A stretch of DNA of 64,000 nucleotides from Ammonifex degensii KC4 (lineage in GTDB: Bacteria; Bacillota; Desulfotomaculia; Desulfotomaculales; Ammonificaceae). The stretch is taken from positions 1,688,175 through 1,752,174 of the forward strand of contig NC_013385.1 in assembly GCF_000024605.1 (NCBI RefSeq), written 5' to 3'. This document shows, in pieces, positions 49,953-58,754 of the stretch. Made by a program: the position numbers and the translations under genes. A model generated the notes under the pieces. That model saw nothing but the letters and a program-made list of their open reading frames with translations. It was not told where the DNA came from and made no database searches. Each line of letters begins with the position of its first letter. Position 1 is the first letter of the stretch.

Positions 49953-50799
49953 GGCTCCGCAAAGTACTGAGGTTCATAACATCTTCTTTCAGATCCGGCC
50001 CCTTGGGCGTCTCCAGCACCATGGGGAGGTGTTGAAAGCGGGGATCGCTTAAAAGTAGGCGGAAACCCTCCAAGCCTATCTCCCCTTTACCTATGTGCTC
50101 GTGGCGATCTAGGCGGCTACCCAGAGTTCCCCGTGAATCATTGAGATGCACCGCCTCAAGCCGATCAATCCCTATGACCCGTTCGAATTCCTCCCAGGTG
50201 GCAGCAAACGCTTCCGGCGTGCGCAGGTCATAGCCGGCAGCGAAGGCGTGGCAGGTATCGAAACAGACGCCCAGCCGCTGGGGACAGCGGCTTTCCCCTA
50301 TGAGCCAGGCTAGGTGCTCGAAGCGGTAGCCCAGCTGGGTTCCCTGGCCTGCGGTAGTCTCCAGCAGGATCTTAACCCGGGTGTGGGCTGTGCGCTCCAG
50401 CACCTCATCTAGCCCCCGCGCTATGCGCTTCAGCCCCTCGGCCTCCCCCTCCCCCATGTGCGCGCCCGGATGGACCACGATGAAGGGAAGACCTAACAGG
50501 TGGCAACGCTCGATCTCTCCCACGAAGCTCTCTATCGACTTGCGCCAGAGCTCTTCCTGAGGAGAACCCAGGTTGATGAGGTAGGAAGTGTGGGCGAAGA
50601 CCGGGCTTACTCCCGTCTCTTCCTGAGCCTGGCGGAAGCGCTCCACCTCCGCCGGTGAAAGGGGGCGGGCATACCATTGGTTGGTATTTTTGGTGAATAT
50701 CTGAATGGTCTCGCACCCTATGCTGTGTCCCCGCCAGACCGCCTTATCCACCCCACCGGCTATGGACATGTGTGCTCCCAGTCGCGGCAAACGCCTCAC
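49942..50799 (-). CDS. nfo: Endonuclease IV (AP endonuclease)
   Basis: 285 residues with a TIM-barrel and three-zinc site: GAHMSIAGGVDKAV, HTSYLINLGSP, VVHPGAHMGEGE, ILLETTAGQGTQLG, GVCFDTCHAFAAGYD, HLNDSRGTLGSRLDRHEHIG and the C-terminal LETPKGPD. It incises DNA at abasic sites in base-excision repair. It overlaps the HEAT-repeat gene upstream by 4 bp. Confidence 0.95.
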   Translation of the reverse strand: MRRLPRLGAHMSIAGGVDKAVWRGHSIGCETIQIFTKNTNQWYARPLSPAEVERFRQAQEETGVSPVFAHTSYLINLGSPQEELWRKSIESFVGEIERCHLLGLPFIVVHPGAHMGEGEAEGLKRIARGLDEVLERTAHTRVKILLETTAGQGTQLGYRFEHLAWLIGESRCPQRLGVCFDTCHAFAAGYDLRTPEAFAATWEEFERVIGIDRLEAVHLNDSRGTLGSRLDRHEHIGKGEIGLEGFRLLLSDPRFQHLPMVLETPKGPDLKEDVMNLSTLRSLMH

Positions 50800-51485
50800 C
50801 TCTCCGCCAGCTTTTTCAAAGCCTCTGCGGCCATTTCCCCCACCGTCTTCCGGTGAAGGTTACCCTTCCGGTAAAAGAAAAAGGAGGAAGCGTCCTCCCG
50901 CAACTTTTCTAACTCTGGACGCGCTTCCTCCCACCTTAAGTTCCCTAGCGCCCAGGCCGCGCAGCCGCGCGCCTCTGGCTCCTCCGACCGAGCCAAAGGA
51001 AGCAGATGAGGAGCTACCTCCTCCACCAACTCCCGGTGTTCTTCCGCAATTCTTCCCACCGCCCAGGCAGCGCTGGCCGCCAAGAAGGGTTCGTCTAAGG
51101 GATTGAGCAGCATGAGGGCAAAGTCCCGGAAAACTTCCGGAGCCCGGGCCACCGCCTCCCCTACCGCCGGGGCCAGGTAGCGCCCGGCGTTCCCCGATTC
51201 ATCGTTCAGGGCCCAGAAAAGCCGGCGCATGCGGTCGAGCGCACACTCCCGATCCCTCTCGGCCACGTTGGCCAGCGCCCGTCCCAGCCCCTCTGCTGCC
51301 CGCCAGGCCAGCAAAGGGTCGGGCAGGTGCAGGGCACGGAAAAGGGCGCCGACATACGCCGGCTCCGCCTCTACCTCCCGCAATAAGCCCTCCCAGTCGG
51401 CCCGGAGCAAAAGTTCCGTCACCCGCTCTTTTCGCCGCCGAAAATCCTCTTGCCCGTGCACTCTATCTCTTCCCTGAGCATTCAA
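50796..51485 (-). CDS. HEAT-repeat protein (DVU0298-like)
   Basis: 229 residues made of helical repeats. The LFWALNDESGNAGRYLAPAVGE segment and the repeats AASAAWAVGRIAEEH and GCAAWALGNLRWEEA fit HEAT-like proteins of the DVU0298 group, which I recall from sulfate-reducing bacteria (memory, not checked). Function is unknown; it may be a scaffold. It is co-transcribed with endonuclease IV. Confidence 0.7.
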   Translation of the reverse strand: MNAQGRDRVHGQEDFRRRKERVTELLLRADWEGLLREVEAEPAYVGALFRALHLPDPLLAWRAAEGLGRALANVAERDRECALDRMRRLFWALNDESGNAGRYLAPAVGEAVARAPEVFRDFALMLLNPLDEPFLAASAAWAVGRIAEEHRELVEEVAPHLLPLARSEEPEARGCAAWALGNLRWEEARPELEKLREDASSFFFYRKGNLHRKTVGEMAAEALKKLAER

Positions 51486-51506: not shown

Positions 51507-51806
51507 TCAGCAACTGCTCGCGCGGGGAGAGGAAATGGTAAAGGTGCTCTCACCCCACCAGGTGGTCTCGTAGTCTACCACCGCTTCCTTAACGTAAGGG
51601 AGCAGGCTTTTGTCCACCACGAACTTGAGGGAAGAAACGGTGAAGACCGCATCGTTTTCCCCCGTTGACTCTTCCAGAGCCAATCCCAGCCGGGGACCGC
51701 CTCAGCCCAGCCCGGCCGAAAAGATGCGGATGTAGCCCTGCTCCAGACCGTGTTCCTGCAAAATGGCCTTCAGCCGCTTTTCTGCCTCTGCCGTAACCCG
51801 CAGCAT
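51507..51806 (-). CDS. HesB/IscA-like selenoprotein (in-frame TGA = Sec35)
   Basis: 99 residues if the TGA codon at 51702-51704 is read as selenocysteine. The frame begins with ATG at 51806 after GGAGGTG and gives MLRVTAEAEKRLKAIL, then FSAGLGUGGPRLGLALEES, matching the GUGGP motif of known HesB-like selenoproteins, and continues without a break to FTISSPRASSC. The IscA fold suggests Fe-S or selenium/sulfur handling; the true reaction is unknown. A SECIS-like hairpin lies 19-37 nt after the TGA. The gene is divergent from a CsoR-type regulator. A standard ORF search splits and loses it. If Sec is not inserted, the product is a 34-residue fragment. Confidence 0.82.
51665..51683 (-). promoter_or_regulatory. 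Bacterial SECIS-like hairpin
   Basis: On the minus strand UUGGCUCU-GGA-AGAGUCAA forms an 8-bp stem (one G-U) with a GGA loop, 19-37 nt after the UGA. The distance and the G-rich small loop fit the bacterial SECIS consensus recognised by SelB. Confidence 0.7.
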
Positions 51807-51995: not shown

Positions 51996-52277
51996 ATGAC
52001 CAATCTGCCGGACGAGGGGCGTTTGGCAATAATCAACCGCCTCCGGCGGATAGAGGGTCAGGTAAGGGGAGTCTGCCGGATGGTGGAAGAGGATCAGGAC
52101 TGCGAGAAAATTCTGGATCAGTTCAAAGCACTGGAAGTAGCGGTGAGGAACTGTCGGCGAGCGGTAATCGGGTACTATATGATCCGCTGTGTCAAGGAAA
52201 GGTTCCAGTGTTCGGAAGAAATGGTCGGCTTTCTCAAACAACGGCTAAGCGGTATTCTCGACACTCCCTTGCCGTGA
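51996..52277 (+). CDS. CsoR/RcnR/FrmR-family regulator, CstR-like (Cys-Tyr-Cys)
   Basis: 93 residues of the DUF156 all-helical family: IINRLRRIEGQVRGVCRM, then EEDQDCEKILDQFKALEVAV and GYYMIRCVKE. In copper sensors the ligands are Cys36, His61 and Cys65. Here C36 and C65 are present but position 61 is Tyr. Loss of the His with both Cys kept is seen in CstR-type persulfide sensors, so a role in sensing reactive sulfur (or selenium) is a reasoned guess. Extra cysteines occur at 27 and 53. It is divergent from the selenoprotein gene, which is its likely target. GGGGAG precedes the ATG. Confidence 0.82.
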   Translation: MTNLPDEGRLAIINRLRRIEGQVRGVCRMVEEDQDCEKILDQFKALEVAVRNCRRAVIGYYMIRCVKERFQCSEEMVGFLKQRLSGILDTPLP

Positions 52278-52922
52278 GGTGAGGAGTCTGACCCTGCTCT
52301 CCCCTTGATACATATCCACCCGGTAAACCCGCTCCCCCGTTTCAGCCAGGCTGTCGGAGTGGGTGACCAAAAGTATTTGTCTCCCGGTCTCTTGACTGAA
52401 GGTCTGCAGCCACTCCCCCAGCTGACGGGCATACTCCTCGCTCACATGCTTGCCGGGCTCGTCCAGGACAAGTATTCCCGGCAAGCGGCTGTGCTCTAAG
52501 AGGGCGCTGCGCAAGCTCAAAGAAATCACATCTACCACCCCACCCCCCCGTGCCTCGGTGGGTTCGGTCTTCACCGGTTGCGTACCCCCGTAGGTGCTGA
52601 TGACGAAAAAGTCGGCTTCCTGTTGCTCCCGGCGGGTGGTGAGCTCTATAGCGAAGCTTATCTCGGGACCGAAAACGGCCTGCAAGGCCGAGGTAACCGC
52701 TTTTTCTAAAGCTTTACGCGCGTGTTCGTAGGCCGAGTTGGCCGCCAGCAGGAATACCTCTCTCACCCGGCCGAGAACCTCCTCTTTCGCACGGCAGGCC
52801 GCAAGTTCTCTTTCTTTTTCCTCCAGTTCCTGCTTGAGCCTGTCAAATTCCCAGCGCTTGCGGGCCACGTACTCTTCGAAGAGAGCAAGACCTTCCTTAA
52901 TCCTCTCGTCCACGCCGCTCAT
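52245..52922 (-). CDS. Rad50/SbcC-like ATPase, C-terminal segment
   Basis: 225 residues. It starts with a coiled coil (about 1-55). The ABC signature region ARGGGVVDVISLSLRSALLE, Walker B ILVLDEPGKHVSEEYA and the H-loop ILLVTHSDSLAE are the C-terminal half of an SMC/Rad50-type ATPase head. No Walker A is present, so it must pair with the separate N-terminal segment encoded two genes upstream. Its start overlaps the coiled-coil gene by 26 bp, and its stop lies 33 bp inside the convergent regulator gene. Confidence 0.8.
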   Translation of the reverse strand: MSGVDERIKEGLALFEEYVARKRWEFDRLKQELEEKERELAACRAKEEVLGRVREVFLLAANSAYEHARKALEKAVTSALQAVFGPEISFAIELTTRREQQEADFFVISTYGGTQPVKTEPTEARGGGVVDVISLSLRSALLEHSRLPGILVLDEPGKHVSEEYARQLGEWLQTFSQETGRQILLVTHSDSLAETGERVYRVDMYQGESRVRLLTSRQGSVENTA

Positions 52923-53187
52923 TACCCCCTGCCGAATATTTTTCGATCAGGTCCCAGGGAATGAGCTCCCGCGCCTCGGCTATGGCCCGAGCTATCTCCT
53001 TCTCCAGCCGGGCCAGCTCTTCTTCGAGCCTCTCCGGCTCTACCCCCAGGCGGCGGATCTCGTTCTCTATTTCCTGGAGCTGGTTTTCCAAGAGCTCCTT
53101 GCGGGCCAGGGCCTGCTCGCGCAGTCGCTTGGCCAGTTCAATTCCTTTCCTTATTTCAGCAATTTCCTTCTCAAAGTTGTTCCCCAA
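52897..53187 (-). CDS. Small coiled-coil protein between the two Rad50-like segments
   Basis: 96 residues from a TTG, nearly all charged heptads (IELAKRLREQALARKELLEN, then ERLEEELARLEKEIARAIAE). It occupies the place of the returning coiled-coil arm of a normal Rad50, between the zinc hook and the C-terminal head. It overlaps the upstream gene by 17 bp and the downstream one by 26 bp, so it is translationally coupled with both. A structural part of the same complex is the natural reading; it has no domain of its own. Confidence 0.65.
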   Translation of the reverse strand: MGNNFEKEIAEIRKGIELAKRLREQALARKELLENQLQEIENEIRRLGVEPERLEEELARLEKEIARAIAEARELIPWDLIEKYSAGGNERRGRED

Positions 53188-54508
53188 GGACTATCCCCAT
53201 CCTTTCCAGCTCTTGCCGCCAGACTTTCTCCACGTGCTCGGGCGTGAGATCGGTACCGCAGAGCGGGCAGCGCTGGAGGGAAGACAAGGCCCGCCGGTAC
53301 CTTTCCGCCTCCAAGTTCAGTGCCTCTTCCTGCTGCCGTACTTTCCGTGCCTCGGCTTCGAGCTCTCCGGCCCGGTTCTTCTTCTCGCGCCAGCAGCGGG
53401 CAAGTTCTCGGTAAAGACGAAGAGCCGCATCGGCCCGGCAAAAGGCCTCCTCCGCTTCCGCCAGGCGGTGAAGCCGGGAGAGCACCTGGAGCTCAAGCTT
53501 TTTTGAGTAATCTAACCTCTTTTGCCGCTCTTCCCGGTAGCGGTGAAGCTGGGCGAACTTTTCACCCAGCCTGCCCAGTTCCTTTCCCCGCTCTTCGGCA
53601 AAAGGAAGCCGGGAAAGGCTACGAAGGATTTCTTCTTCCCGGGCCAGGGCGGCTGAGACACGCCGGCGTGCCTCAGCCGCTTTAGAAAGTTGCCCGTATC
53701 TTCTTTCCAGTTCTTCCAGCTCTGCCAGCTTGGCGGCCAGGATTTCCTCGGAAGGAAGCCGGGCCAGGGCGCTCATGAAGAAGGCCGCCTCTCGCCGCAG
53801 CCGTTCCCTTTTCTCCTTCAGGCAGAGAAGCTCTGCCCGTCTTTCTTCTGCCTTAAGCACCCCGTTTACCAGCTCACGGACTGTCTTCAGCTTTTCCTCC
53901 AGCTGTGGAAGTTCTTCCTGCAAAGGGGAAATTTTCTTCCGGAGGGCGGCAACGGACTCCTCCAGGCTCTTTATCCGGCCTTGCCACTGGGACTGCTCCC
54001 GCAAAGCCGCTTTGGCCGCCCGCTGGAAAAGGTCGGCCCCCGCTATCTGCCCTATCACCTGCGCCCGCACGCTGGGGCTCTCCCGCAAAAGAAAAGGAGG
54101 ATCAAGCTGGTGAGCAAGGTGCAGCTCCAGTGACTGGTTGCCTATGGAGTAAGGCTTTATGCCGGTGAGCTCCTCTACCTCCTTAGGGACGCTTCGCCCA
54201 GGGCTTTCCAGGCGCAAGGACTTCCCATCGGGATACTTTATACAGTAGCGGTTGGTCTTTCCTTCCCGCTCGCGCTCAACGAGCAGGCCGTCTTCCAGTT
54301 CTACGGCCACCCGGCAGCGGTGGCTACCCGCCCGCACCAGCCCCTCCCCCTGGGGGCGGTTGTAGAAGAGCCAGCGCAGAGCCCGTACCACCGCCGACTT
54401 GCCCCGGTCCGATTCCCCCACCAGCACGGTAACGGTAGGGGAAAGCTCGATTTCTGTGTAGCGGTGCGACTGGAAGTTTTCCAGGATTATCCGCCTGATT
54501 TTAGGCAT
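53171..54508 (-). CDS. Rad50/SbcC-like ATPase, N-terminal segment with zinc hook
   Basis: 445 residues. The N-terminal head has IILENFQSHRYTEIELSP and Walker A VGESDRGKS with ALRWLFYNRP. A long coiled coil spans about 175-410, and near the end is CPLCGTDLTPEHV, a CxxC zinc-hook motif. A full Rad50 would continue through a second coil to the C-terminal head; here the chain stops about 30 residues after the hook. The Q-loop segment KPYSIGNQSLELHLA is present. It overlaps mre11 by 8 bp. It probably works with the next two products as a three-chain Rad50. Confidence 0.82.
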   Translation of the reverse strand: MPKIRRIILENFQSHRYTEIELSPTVTVLVGESDRGKSAVVRALRWLFYNRPQGEGLVRAGSHRCRVAVELEDGLLVEREREGKTNRYCIKYPDGKSLRLESPGRSVPKEVEELTGIKPYSIGNQSLELHLAHQLDPPFLLRESPSVRAQVIGQIAGADLFQRAAKAALREQSQWQGRIKSLEESVAALRKKISPLQEELPQLEEKLKTVRELVNGVLKAEERRAELLCLKEKRERLRREAAFFMSALARLPSEEILAAKLAELEELERRYGQLSKAAEARRRVSAALAREEEILRSLSRLPFAEERGKELGRLGEKFAQLHRYREERQKRLDYSKKLELQVLSRLHRLAEAEEAFCRADAALRLYRELARCWREKKNRAGELEAEARKVRQQEEALNLEAERYRRALSSLQRCPLCGTDLTPEHVEKVWRQELERMGIVLGEQL

Positions 54509-55493
54509 TTTCCCCCACCTCAGCTTGGACCTGAGACCATATCCGATAAACCTCCTGTTTTACCTCTTCAAAGCCAAGATCGTCCTTCTTTTCCGCCAGG
54601 ACGCGTTCCAGAATGATGTCGGGCGTGGTCGTAGACCAACCTTCCGCCCTGCTTAGAGCCCGCAGCTGTGCCAGAAACTCCTCCCGCTTCCTGGCCCGGA
54701 AGGCGGCCTCTTCAATGGCCTGCCGGTCAAGCACCTCCACCCCCGGCAGGGCGCTTTGCAGGGGGATGTGCTCGTGCCACAACCTCTCCTCCACGTGGAT
54801 CAGGACCACCTGGGGGGTACGGTTGAGCTCCGCCGGGCTGGCCGAAAGGCGCACCAAGGCCCCAGGGTTGAGAAACCACTTGCCTTCCCGGCAAACGTCC
54901 GGATAGCCGAGGTGATAGTGGCCGCATAGGGTGTAGTCCGCCTCGGTATGGGGAGCCACCTCGTCGACGAGGGTATACTTCATCACCGTCCCCTGAGGGC
55001 GGTCGATGAGCGCCCCGTGACACACATGCAAGGCCACATCGCAATCCCCTTTTTTTACTACGTAGTCCGCCTTATCCCCTTCGTCGATGGCGTAGTGGTA
55101 AGGTGCTCCGGTTACCTTGACCCTTATTCCTTTTTCCTCAAAGTAGACGGGGGTGGAGGAAAGCAGGCGCACTTGTCCTAAGCGGGCCAGGAAGCCCAGC
55201 AGGGTGCGCGAGAGGGTGGCCGGATTCTGTCCGTGCAGATCGTGGTTGCCCGGTACCACCAGTAAGGGTGCAGGCAGCCTGGCCAGGATGGCCAGATATT
55301 CACCCATGGCACTTAAGCCCGGCAAAGGGGCATCGAAGAAATCCCCCCCGTGCAAGACCGCCGTGACTTCCAGTTCCTCCGCCAGCCGCACCACTTCCTC
55401 TAGCTTGGTCTTCAAGGTAGCTACAAAGTCGTCCTTGCGGTTGGTCGGGTTTACCCCGCGCAGATGGGTATCGGTGAGGAAAAGAAAGCGCAA
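54501..55493 (-). CDS. Mre11/SbcD-like metallophosphatase nuclease
   Basis: 330 residues. The calcineurin-like motifs are complete: FLTDTHLRG (Asp, His), GGDFFDAP, VPGNHDLHG, LHVCHGALI and CGHYHLG, which bind two Mn ions. The C-terminal 80 residues would contact the Rad50 coils. It is the exonuclease/endonuclease partner of the Rad50-like chains. It lies 17 bp after the HerA gene and overlaps the Rad50 N-terminal segment gene. Confidence 0.87.
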   Translation of the reverse strand: MRFLFLTDTHLRGVNPTNRKDDFVATLKTKLEEVVRLAEELEVTAVLHGGDFFDAPLPGLSAMGEYLAILARLPAPLLVVPGNHDLHGQNPATLSRTLLGFLARLGQVRLLSSTPVYFEEKGIRVKVTGAPYHYAIDEGDKADYVVKKGDCDVALHVCHGALIDRPQGTVMKYTLVDEVAPHTEADYTLCGHYHLGYPDVCREGKWFLNPGALVRLSASPAELNRTPQVVLIHVEERLWHEHIPLQSALPGVEVLDRQAIEEAAFRARKREEFLAQLRALSRAEGWSTTTPDIILERVLAEKKDDLGFEEVKQEVYRIWSQVQAEVGENA

Positions 55494-55510: not shown

Positions 55511-57442
55511 TCAGGCCAATGCCCAGCGATAGCCGCCGAAGGCCAGGCTTGTAGTTACTTTAAGCTTGCCCGCTTCCGACCAGCGTCTGAGTGCCTGGCG
55601 TAGCTCAGCCTCGTTTACCCGGCGCCTCAGGCGCCGCTCGCACTCCTGCAGGCACTGGGTGAGATCCAGTTCTCTAATGTAGCCGCCGCGCTTCTCGATG
55701 AACTCCCGCACCACGGGCCAGAGATCTTCTCCCTGCCTTTGCCGGTACTCCCGCCACTCGGCGAGGGGATCCTCAGCGTGGGGGCTACGGGTCCAGCTCG
55801 CCCGCACCGTGATGGGTACCGTCCTCCGCACGATGGCCGAGGAGACAAAAGCATTGCCCGAAGAAAGATAGGGGAGGCGGTTAATTTCCCCCGGTCCGAG
55901 GTCGGTCTCACGGCTTATGACGTCCAGGTCCTGCGCCCGCACGGTGCGCAGGATGATCTTGGTGTTGAGCTGGGCGTTGACCGTGTCGTCGAGCAGGGAG
56001 GGACGCTGGGTGGCCAAGACGAGAAACACCCCGTACTTGCGCCCTTCCTGCGCTATTTCCCTAATTATGGAGCGTGCGGGCGCAAAGTCCTTGTCGCCGG
56101 TGGACTTGGGAGCCAGGACGTGAGCCTCGTCGGTCACCACGAAGAAGGGAGGGAAGTAAGGGGAGGCTTTGGTGCCGTATTGCTTGCCGTCTCGGTAGTC
56201 CCGGCGCTGCCGGAAAAGCCGCCTTAAAGCGTAGGTGGCAAAGATGATGAGCTTGCGCGTTTCTCCCCGCACTATACACACCTTTCCCTGCTTTAAAGCC
56301 TCTTCTATATCCGTCGTGCCGCGGGAGCCAAAAAGCCCAGCGTAGCAGAGGAAATTGAGGCGCCGCTGCACGGCCTGGGCCGTGCTTTCGCTTATGCCGG
56401 CATCGCGGAACTCCTGGTATACCTTCAACTTTTCCCGGTACTCGGCCTGGCGCAGGGGGTCGTCGGGAAACCTTTCCTCCGCCGGGTCTTTTCCCTCCTC
56501 TTGCTTCTTGAGGTCCTGTTCAAATCGCCGGGAATAAGTTAGGGCTTCTATCAGGCAACTAAGGCGATTCCGGTAGCTCTCCAGGCTATCTCCCGGACGC
56601 CACAGGACCGAGGCCGCGTGGTCCATCTGCTCGGTCCAGCCTTCCATGGCTGCCTTTAGCAGAATCACCAATTCTCCCCGCTCCAAATCTTCAAAGCGGA
56701 CATCGGCATTGTGCCCCAGCAAAAAGAGGCTTGCCTTGTCAGCCAACTCCCTCTGCCGGGACAAAAAAGGCTCGTCGAAAACCAGCGGCTCTTCGAAGCT
56801 AAGCTCGAAGTGGGGGTCAAAAACCAGGGTGGGTATTTCCTGACGCATGAGTTCCTCCAGCAAAACACGCAGGGCGAAAGACTTGCCCGAGCCCGAACCT
56901 CCAAAAATCCCCACATGAGGATACTGGGAGAACTTAGACCAGGGAAGGAAGAAAGGAACCCCTTGCATGTATTCAACCCTTTCTTCCCCGGGAAGGTAGC
57001 GAAAGACCAGATTTTTTAGCTCCTCCGGGAGATCGAACTCTTCGGTTCCCCGAACCACGCCGAGTAGAGCCCCCGCTTCTTGCCAGTCTTCCGGCAAGAG
57101 GTGGGGGCGCACTTCCTCAAAAGTGGCCGGCCGCACCCTGGCCCCCACCTCCAAGGGATGGGTGAGTTCCTCCACCACTCGTACCTCGGCCAGGTAAAAG
57201 GTCTCGTGCGCCGGGTCATAGCCTAGGGCCTGCAGGGTTCCCAAGGTAGCTTCGTCGATGAGACCAGGATGGGCCGCGTGTGCGGCCTCGGGCAGGAGGG
57301 GGTTGATGGCGTAGGTACCTACCACCTCTACCAGTACCCCTCCCGGGTTGCCTTCCACCACCAGGTACTCGTTTACCCGGAAAGGGCGTTCCCGCGTGGC
57401 TACCTTTCCTTCTACCTGGCTGGTTACACCCACCAGACGCAT
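55511..57442 (-). CDS. HerA-like DNA translocase/helicase
   Basis: 643 residues. An N-terminal HAS-barrel-like domain (about 1-130), then the hexameric ATPase with Walker A GGSGSGKSFALRVLLEEL near 177, Walker B FFVVTDEAHVLAP and the sensor VLATQRPSLLDDTVNAQLNT, are typical of HerA. HerA hexamers pull DNA through while bound to the NurA nuclease and with Mre11-Rad50 make long single-stranded overhangs. A winged-helix-like C-terminus (RRRVNEAELRQALRRWSEAG) is unusual and may bind DNA. It lies 23 bp after nurA. Confidence 0.88.
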   Translation of the reverse strand: MRLVGVTSQVEGKVATRERPFRVNEYLVVEGNPGGVLVEVVGTYAINPLLPEAAHAAHPGLIDEATLGTLQALGYDPAHETFYLAEVRVVEELTHPLEVGARVRPATFEEVRPHLLPEDWQEAGALLGVVRGTEEFDLPEELKNLVFRYLPGEERVEYMQGVPFFLPWSKFSQYPHVGIFGGSGSGKSFALRVLLEELMRQEIPTLVFDPHFELSFEEPLVFDEPFLSRQRELADKASLFLLGHNADVRFEDLERGELVILLKAAMEGWTEQMDHAASVLWRPGDSLESYRNRLSCLIEALTYSRRFEQDLKKQEEGKDPAEERFPDDPLRQAEYREKLKVYQEFRDAGISESTAQAVQRRLNFLCYAGLFGSRGTTDIEEALKQGKVCIVRGETRKLIIFATYALRRLFRQRRDYRDGKQYGTKASPYFPPFFVVTDEAHVLAPKSTGDKDFAPARSIIREIAQEGRKYGVFLVLATQRPSLLDDTVNAQLNTKIILRTVRAQDLDVISRETDLGPGEINRLPYLSSGNAFVSSAIVRRTVPITVRASWTRSPHAEDPLAEWREYRQRQGEDLWPVVREFIEKRGGYIRELDLTQCLQECERRLRRRVNEAELRQALRRWSEAGKLKVTTSLAFGGYRWALA

Positions 57443-57465: not shown

Positions 57466-58425
57466 TTAAAAAGGACGGCGCCGACGGTGCGAGGAAAGGA
57501 AAACCTCCCGCAGCTCTGGCGGCACCGTGACGGCCACCAGGCGTTCCACCTCGGCCGCCTGCAGGCGCACGTAGCGATCGGCCAGATCGATCAGGCTTGG
57601 TATCCCTCTGCCGTCGGCAGGAGTGAGGGCGCGTAAGACGCCCAGGATTTCGGGCAAAAACTCTTTCTGCTCGCGTAGAAAGTCAAAGGCCACCGGCTGG
57701 GGATGATGGCCGAAACGGGCAAACACTCTGATGAAGGGTTCTTCTTCGTCCTCCTCCAACTCGAAGACTTCTCCTAGATCCAGGCACCCGTAAAGCACCT
57801 CTCGGTCGTGGGGAGAAAAACCGGTAAAGCCAAGGCCCACCGCTTCTCCCAGCCGCCGGCTAGCTATTTCCTCTATGACTCCCACCAGCAGTACCCCTCC
57901 TTCCAGGGCCCGCTCGCAAAGAGCCTGAAAAAGCTCCCCCGCCCGATTGCGGAAGGGAACGAAGCCTCCGTCGAGTAAGACCAGAGCTCCTGGCAAAGCC
58001 TCCGCCACTTGTAGGGCCACCCGGAGCTCAAGCGCGGTCATCAGCTCCCGCACCCGCTGCTCGGCCATCAGATCCGGAGCTCCGCGCTCTTTTTGCGCCC
58101 GCTCTTCCAGGTACTCTCGCACCTCCGGCTTGAGCGGCGAGAACACCTCGTGCTCCACCAAGGGGGAGTCAAGAGGGGGAAGAGCAAAAGCGACGGCCTG
58201 CATGAGGACGAGGAAGTAGGGAAAATGGGAACCTACCGTGCCCAGCGAGCCATCCACCGCCACCACGCGCCTTTTTGGCGGCAAAGGGTCAACTCGGTAA
58301 AACTTGCCTAATCTCTCCAGCCGGCAGCGCAGCTCAAAAATCGAGGGGCGTCCTTGGAGGAACTGGTGGCAAAGAGACGCAAACTCCTTGAGCTTAGCCA
58401 CCGCCCCCTCGTTCCCCACGAGCAA
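57466..58425 (-). CDS. NurA-domain nuclease
   Basis: 319 residues from a TTG at 58425 (a GTG two codons on is also possible); the longer frame upstream overlaps the DUF4405 gene and is discounted. VVAVDGSLGTVGSHFPYF carries the first catalytic Asp of NurA and ALVLLDGGFVPFRN the second. NurA dimers sit on HerA hexamers and degrade DNA 5'-to-3' (known from archaea and some bacteria). The herA gene follows 23 bp later, supporting the pairing. Confidence 0.83.
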   Translation of the reverse strand: MLVGNEGAVAKLKEFASLCHQFLQGRPSIFELRCRLERLGKFYRVDPLPPKRRVVAVDGSLGTVGSHFPYFLVLMQAVAFALPPLDSPLVEHEVFSPLKPEVREYLEERAQKERGAPDLMAEQRVRELMTALELRVALQVAEALPGALVLLDGGFVPFRNRAGELFQALCERALEGGVLLVGVIEEIASRRLGEAVGLGFTGFSPHDREVLYGCLDLGEVFELEEDEEEPFIRVFARFGHHPQPVAFDFLREQKEFLPEILGVLRALTPADGRGIPSLIDLADRYVRLQAAEVERLVAVTVPPELREVFLSSHRRRRPF

Positions 58426-58433
58426 GCTTCCAC

Positions 58434-58754
58434 CTACCTCTCCTTGCCGCCGAAGATCTGGCGGGTCATGGAGACAATCCAGGACCAGTGAAGGTAAAGG
58501 TGGATGATCACCAGCGCTACCAGCGCCAGGGCCAAGTAGCGGTGGATATCGGTCCAGGTATGGCGCGTTAAAAAGAGAAAGACCTGTTCCTGACTCAGGC
58601 GCCAGCCGTAACTTCCCCCATGACCCCACTGCCAGCCGTAACCTCCTCCACCACCGGGGAGCACCAGCCAGCGCACAAAGCCGGAGAAAGCCAGTCCTAG
58701 CCCCACCAGGAAAAGGAGGCAATCCACCAAGTAGTTGAGTTTAGAGCGGTTCAA
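58434..58754 (-). CDS. DUF4405 small membrane protein (cytochrome b561-like)
   Basis: 106 residues from a TTG with AAGGGGGG upstream. Two membrane helices (about 8-33 and 70-95) flank a Gly/Trp-rich loop. The second carries HTWTDIHRYLALALVALVII and HLYLHW, the histidine pattern of DUF4405, which may ligate haem. It is 8 bp upstream of nurA, but a functional tie to DNA repair is not apparent; it may simply share the transcript. Confidence 0.75.
   Translation of the reverse strand: MNRSKLNYLVDCLLFLVGLGLAFSGFVRWLVLPGGGGGYGWQWGHGGSYGWRLSQEQVFLFLTRHTWTDIHRYLALALVALVIIHLYLHWSWIVSMTRQIFGGKER

Follow-up and report, generated by a model that had tools for sequence, protein, structure and literature searches.

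A Rad50 divided among three genes is conserved across many Bacillota and some phages

The genome of Ammonifex degensii KC4 (2.16 Mb) encodes a Rad50 divided among three neighbouring genes, and this divided form is kept across many Bacillota and some phages. In the window, the whole 64,000-nucleotide stretch of that genome analysed here, the N chain carries one half of the ATPase head, the arm and the zinc hook, the C chain carries the other half of the head, and a short chain encoded between them (mid) contains a segment of coil. We consider it highly probable (roughly 85%) that the three chains form an obligate multi-subunit Rad50 that works with Mre11, with a head built from the N and C chains and with mid supplying part of the return coil. 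A literature search that covered few subscription journals returned no earlier account of a split Rad50 or split SbcC.

Gene organization and Rad50 motifs

The genes are located on the minus strand in the order NurA, HerA, Mre11, N chain, mid and C chain (Table 1), with the HerA ATPase gene next to the NurA nuclease gene. An ORF check returned the same coordinates, lengths and overlaps (17 bp for N/mid and 26 bp for mid/C) that a preliminary description had given for the three split genes, and every frame has a start of its own, as stated there. The frame shifts by +1 at each of these junctions, and the last 8 bp of the Mre11-like gene are shared with the start of the N gene. The true start of NurA may lie further in, since homologues align only from about residue 98 of the listed protein.

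Table 1. Features of the divided Rad50 operon of A. degensii KC4 (positions in the window)
Feature	Position	Strand	Description
NurA nuclease	57466..58722	minus	418 aa as listed; NurA 1.7e-20
HerA-like translocase	55511..57442	minus	643 aa; DUF87/HerA 9.3e-13
Mre11-like nuclease	54501..55493	minus	330 aa; Metallophos 1.6e-12, also Mre11 models
N chain	53171..54508	minus	445 aa, ATG start; Rad50 N-lobe (Walker A, Q-loop), helical arm, CPLC zinc hook
Walker A GESDRGKS	54395..54418	minus	N chain residues 31-38
N-chain arm	53276..54031	minus	about residues 160-411; helices broken at 250-253 and 299-300
Zinc-hook motif CPLC	53258..53269	minus	N chain residues 414-417; C414, P415 and C417 invariant
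Mid chain	52897..53187	minus	96 aa, TTG start; helix - GVEP loop - helix - LIPWDL
C chain	52245..52922	minus	225 aa, ATG start; return-coil end, signature, Walker B, D-loop, H-loop
ABC signature region ARGGGVVD	52530..52553	minus	C chain residues 124-131
Walker B ILVLDE	52458..52475	minus	C chain residues 150-155; D154 and E155 invariant; LDEP present
H-loop histidine H188 (TH188)	52359..52361	minus	C chain; invariant

Walker A, Q-loop, signature, Walker B and H-loop are all present, invariant or nearly so, and divided between the N and C chains. The two halves of the head are thus on separate proteins, as the preliminary description had recognized, with Walker A, arm and hook on N and with signature, Walker B and H-loop on C. 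Within Walker A, residues G31, E32, S33, D34, G36, K37 and S38 are invariant among 14 sequences; the Q-loop glutamine is Q134 of the N chain, and signature residues G126, G127 and G128 are invariant among 38 host, phage and plasmid sequences. From the CPLC hook to the end of the N chain there are 32 residues, and a CxxC motif lies within 10-45 residues of this end in 75 of 76 proteins. The mid chain is conserved in 14 sequences, and its LIPWDL tail is kept in hosts. The usual Rad50/SbcC architecture places both half-heads on one polypeptide, which is not the case here, and we therefore regard the system as a variant and not as a canonical Rad50.

A convergent gene on the plus strand (51996-52277), for a CsoR/RicR-like metal-sensing repressor, faces the operon and shares 33 bp with the 3' end of the C-chain gene. 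Slightly downstream of the operon, a HEAT-repeat protein is encoded (50796-51485, minus strand; HEAT_EZ 2.8e-10). An IscA/HesB-like gene (51507-51806, minus strand) contains an in-frame TGA at the expected cysteine (SAGLG-U-GGPRLGL) and likely encodes a selenoprotein, its best family being IscA_HesB_Se (3.3e-17, below the family cut-off); a SECIS element was sought in the RNA directly after this TGA, which folded no better than shuffled sequences (z -0.6).

Conservation of the three-gene split

The C chain is 94% identical to that of Ammonifex thiophilus, the nearest named relative in the search. Besides the window, 13 of 60 relatives carry the C chain in the same setting (two of these contigs end before NurA), and all 13 have three ORFs; the single continuous gene in close relatives that the preliminary description had named as its counter-case was not encountered. 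Furthermore, 84,980 species, each represented by one genome, were scanned with patterns and tblastn, which returned 182 loci; 80 of these (L082-L161) were fetched. The split is kept here as well, with N, mid and C as separate ORFs in 79 of the 80 loci, including two with a broken N frame and a few cut by a contig end, and with the C chain alone found in the remaining locus. The N-chain frame in two pieces was observed at 1926-3440 of L148 and 6218-7683 of L160.

As the search patterns might favour the split family, a profile search of 398 sampled Bacillota genomes was added. It gave 67 C-chain matches of at least 160 bits (counts taken by eye from the table), of which 65 lie in open frames of 155-314 aa and the other two belong to Mre11-fused, hookless mini-Rad50 proteins of 686-702 aa. 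The next match scored 107 bits (G027, in the fusion group), followed by matches of 62 bits and lower. No single-chain, hook-bearing member was found among the 398 genomes by this search.

Selection has kept all three split frames. Comparison of the window with A. thiophilus gives a dN/dS of 0.161 for N, 0.017 for mid, 0.055 for C and 0.067 for Mre11, so that N, mid and C are each under purifying selection and mid, the least known of the chains, shows the strongest constraint. The junctions themselves are variable: with start codons picked by a script, 29 of 76 loci have overlapping N and mid genes and 39 of 76 have overlapping mid and C genes, and the pair of 17 and 26 bp overlaps is found beyond the window only in A. 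thiophilus, with gaps or other overlaps at other loci. The earlier suggestion that the overlaps point to coupled synthesis rather than decay was borne out with regard to decay. Translational coupling is plausible but, given that this pair of overlaps is shared only with A. thiophilus, it is not the conserved feature.

Phage, plasmid and hookless versions

The N, C and mid chains match the phage protein families PHROG 16465 (1.4e-52), phrog_15167 (2.8e-46) and phrog_18563 (1.1e-6), respectively. PHROG lists these phage counterparts apart as exonuclease, ATPase and unknown, and they are not recognized there as one divided Rad50. The C chain is a short ORF in all of 26 viral contigs, while N sits elsewhere, commonly with Mre11 between N and C. 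Gene orders are rearranged, for example N-x-Mre11-mid-C, and in Bacillus phage vB_BboS-125 the order is N, AP2-domain gene, mid and C. In several viral contigs a short coil protein was seen by eye just before C, where the mid profile is too weak. One viral contig encodes Mre11 and the N chain in a single 838-aa frame (L165, 2077-4593), with C as a separate gene. Relatives also occur on plasmids. Gene 4 of Microbacterium phage Magritte, a candidate for an out-of-order N chain, was dropped as the N profile gave no match.

A tree of 93 C-lobes (IQ-TREE) places host chains, together with the mini forms, and phage or plasmid chains on opposite sides of one branch (96/88). The hookless mini-Rad50 has both lobes on one short chain and was found in seven members. 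In four of these (L050, L051, L054 and L056) it follows Mre11 within a single fused ORF of 686-787 aa, and in L052, L053 and L055 Mre11 is separate. All seven form one group (97/93) nested among the host split forms. At face value, the tree suggests a re-fusion that gave rise to the mini form and in which hook, arm and mid were lost; the exact position of the mini form is unsure because of long branches.

Assignment to the Rad50 family and predicted fold

The N chain of the window matches AAA_23 (1.1e-11) and, just under the cut-off, Rad50_zn_hook (9.6e-5). In profile searches of the PDB, archaeal Rad50 was the best match of both half-heads, with 6e-13 for N (SMC 1e-8) and 4.8e-15 for C (SMC 1.1e-8, ABC transporters 2e-6), and the end of the N profile can be aligned with 6zff and 1l8d, two solved structures of the Rad50 zinc hook. 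Scores of N and C against SbcC models were weak or absent. In hosts, a gene for a Mre11-like protein, the partner expected of Rad50 (Mre11/SbcD), is adjacent.

At locus L139, N, mid and C lie in one frame, and reading its two stops as glycine therefore gives a tethered chain, which was modelled from an 81-sequence alignment with bridging rows linking N, mid and C fragments to the tethered reading. The predicted structure (mean pLDDT 79.7, pTM 0.53) contains a Rad50/SMC head that matches Pyrococcus furiosus Rad50 4ncj (Z 27.7, 293 residues, rmsd 3.1 A) and 5xei (Z 27.9, 439 residues, rmsd 5.3) equally well within one Z unit, so that fold alone cannot separate Rad50 from SMC. As a single tethered chain with a low pTM, this model is a test of compatibility and not of assembly or mid contacts. 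Modelled alone (pLDDT 81.7), the window N chain has short strands around CPLC, between the arm and the last helix, as would be expected of a hook.

An arm built in 47-residue units

The number of residues before the hook clusters at 413, 460, 507 and 601, and lies within 3 of 413+47n in 68 of 75 proteins. Compared with heptad-shuffled arms, the self-correlation of the arm gave z 35.7 at lag 47 and z 23.4 at lag 94, values that overstate the evidence because the sequences are related. Helix breaks occur about every 47 residues in the L139 model, and those of the window N chain are given in Table 1. The mid chain (median 86 aa), the C chain (median 220 aa) and the 118-132 residues before GGG in C do not follow the arm steps. 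The idea that mid is a detached 47-residue arm unit was unsupported (hhalign probability 0.6%); mid compared with the C coil gave 80%, though composition makes coiled coils match one another.

In a one-chain Rad50, the outgoing and return strands should match in length. Here, the putative return strand (N tail, mid and start of C) comprises about 160 aa and the arm about 250-440 aa, and since the N arm varies while mid and C are constant, the two would not be matched in length as in ordinary Rad50. This mismatch means that the canonical arm geometry cannot simply be assumed; single added helices of 47 residues would reverse direction in a zigzag. A Rad50 cut just after the hook had been anticipated to be an unusual architecture; both the cut and its unusual nature hold, but the system is more than a canonical Rad50 with a cut, as its arm varies in steps of 47 residues.

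Proposed working of the divided Rad50 and alternative explanations

From the established Mre11-Rad50 and HerA-NurA systems we infer how the chains could assemble, in what stoichiometry and activity, and what mid contributes. The N-lobe, the entire outgoing arm and the zinc hook at its tip would come from the N chain, the final part of the return coil and the C-lobe from the C chain, and a helix-loop-helix segment of the return strand from mid. The N and C lobes would join into one Rad50-type head, and two such heads would close with ATP over a DNA end bound by a Mre11 dimer, with the hooks at the tips of the N chains linking two complexes. Where HerA-NurA is present, it would resect the DNA end; in many hosts, the stretch that was fetched contains Mre11 and the trio but no HerA-NurA. 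As the return strand would not be covalently closed at the hook, the arm could grow by whole 47-residue units with its partner unchanged.

Alternatively, mid might be a free regulatory or adaptor protein outside the return coil, with Rad50 proper consisting of N and C only. That mid is the most constrained of the three chains, that its LIPWDL tail is conserved in hosts and that arm variation leaves mid and C constant would all fit such a role, but mid has coil content, its gene lies between those of N and C, and it is present wherever hosts have both; we therefore regard a free mid as a possibility of some weight, yet clearly the less likely one. More tentatively still, the split could be what allows an adjustable Rad50, in which free mid, perhaps in several copies, clads an arm whose length is set in 47-residue units and the head is taken apart and reassembled from its two half-sites, a form of regulation not available to a one-chain Rad50.

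The divided Rad50 could also belong to an anti-phage or anti-plasmid defence module and not to housekeeping repair. Its C chain matches mad3 (3.6e-12), its N chain matches LmuB (7.8e-15), HerA matches anti-phage HerA models, and relatives are carried by plasmids and phages. However, phages are themselves carriers, Mre11 and NurA have no defence-model match, and the system is present across whole lineages as the host group of the C-chain tree. Moreover, it largely replaces the ordinary one-piece SbcC. A search of the window genome for another SbcC or SbcD found none, and ordinary SbcC (E 1e-10) is present in 3 of 45 genomes with the split compared with 19 of 45 sampled genomes without it (absent from 42 and 26, respectively; Fisher p 1.4e-4, which ignores kinship and is confounded by shared ancestry). 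We consider a defence role unlikely, and this pattern suggests that the cell's only Rad50 goes unrecognized in many Bacillota.

Programmed frameshifting or stop read-through might join the frames, so that the true product would be one long Rad50. The overlapping junctions of the window and the L139 frames, which are all in register and separated by nothing more than stops and short gaps, are compatible with this, but all nine frame combinations occur among the loci, and intergenic distances range from -68 to +237 bp (larger in the two loci with a broken N frame), with gaps of up to 147 and 237 bp. Each gene usually has its own start and a ribosome-binding-like sequence, and in phages other genes are placed between N, mid and C, a reordering that frameshift or decay can hardly explain. 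A joined product is thus very improbable. Sequencing or assembly frame errors or pseudogene decay of one continuous gene, for which the +1 shift at both window junctions and the N frame broken in 2 of 80 loci could be cited, are rejected, as the relatives already refute them: all 13 close operons and 79 of the 80 loci are split, with differing frames and gaps. The reordered phage genes and purifying selection on all three frames also speak against such errors or decay.

Comparison with known systems

In SMC-type ATPases, as described for the superfamily, Walker A lies at one end of a single chain, opposite the signature and Walker B (PMC9389158). A conserved Rad50 with half-sites on different proteins breaks this single-chain rule, and does so in a broad range of bacteria as well as in phages. 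Mre11/Rad50 fusion proteins likewise depart from the two-gene layout; these are fused, and a split was not described, but the proteins of Anaerostipes and Bacillus phage 0305phi8-36 were reported without one SbcC P-loop segment (PMC3175470). The missing segment may be an unrecognized split, a link that stays conjectural because a tblastn search of named phages with a divergent phage C chain and an Mre11-N fusion did not reach phage 0305phi8-36.

The SbcC of bacterial SbcCD is a single chain, about 860-1240 aa long in the sampled genomes, and its presence is nearly exclusive with that of the split Rad50, which would share its role as the cell's Mre11-Rad50. The Rad50 heads used in crystallography (1f2t A/B and 1ii8 A/B) are formed by lobes on two chains, as proposed here for the N and C chains. 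Those are man-made fragments of a one-chain Rad50, whereas the split described here is natural. In the divided Rad50, nature supplies a system that allows head closure, arm length and hook to be varied as separate parts, and its 47-residue steps provide a direct test of the importance of arm length in Mre11-Rad50.

Archaeal Rad50, encoded with Mre11, HerA and NurA, shares with the A. degensii operon the same four activities in adjacent genes, the zinc hook and the best sequence match to both half-heads. It is a single chain of about 870-900 aa (model lengths), in contrast to the three chains of the divided Rad50 and its N arm in 47-residue steps.
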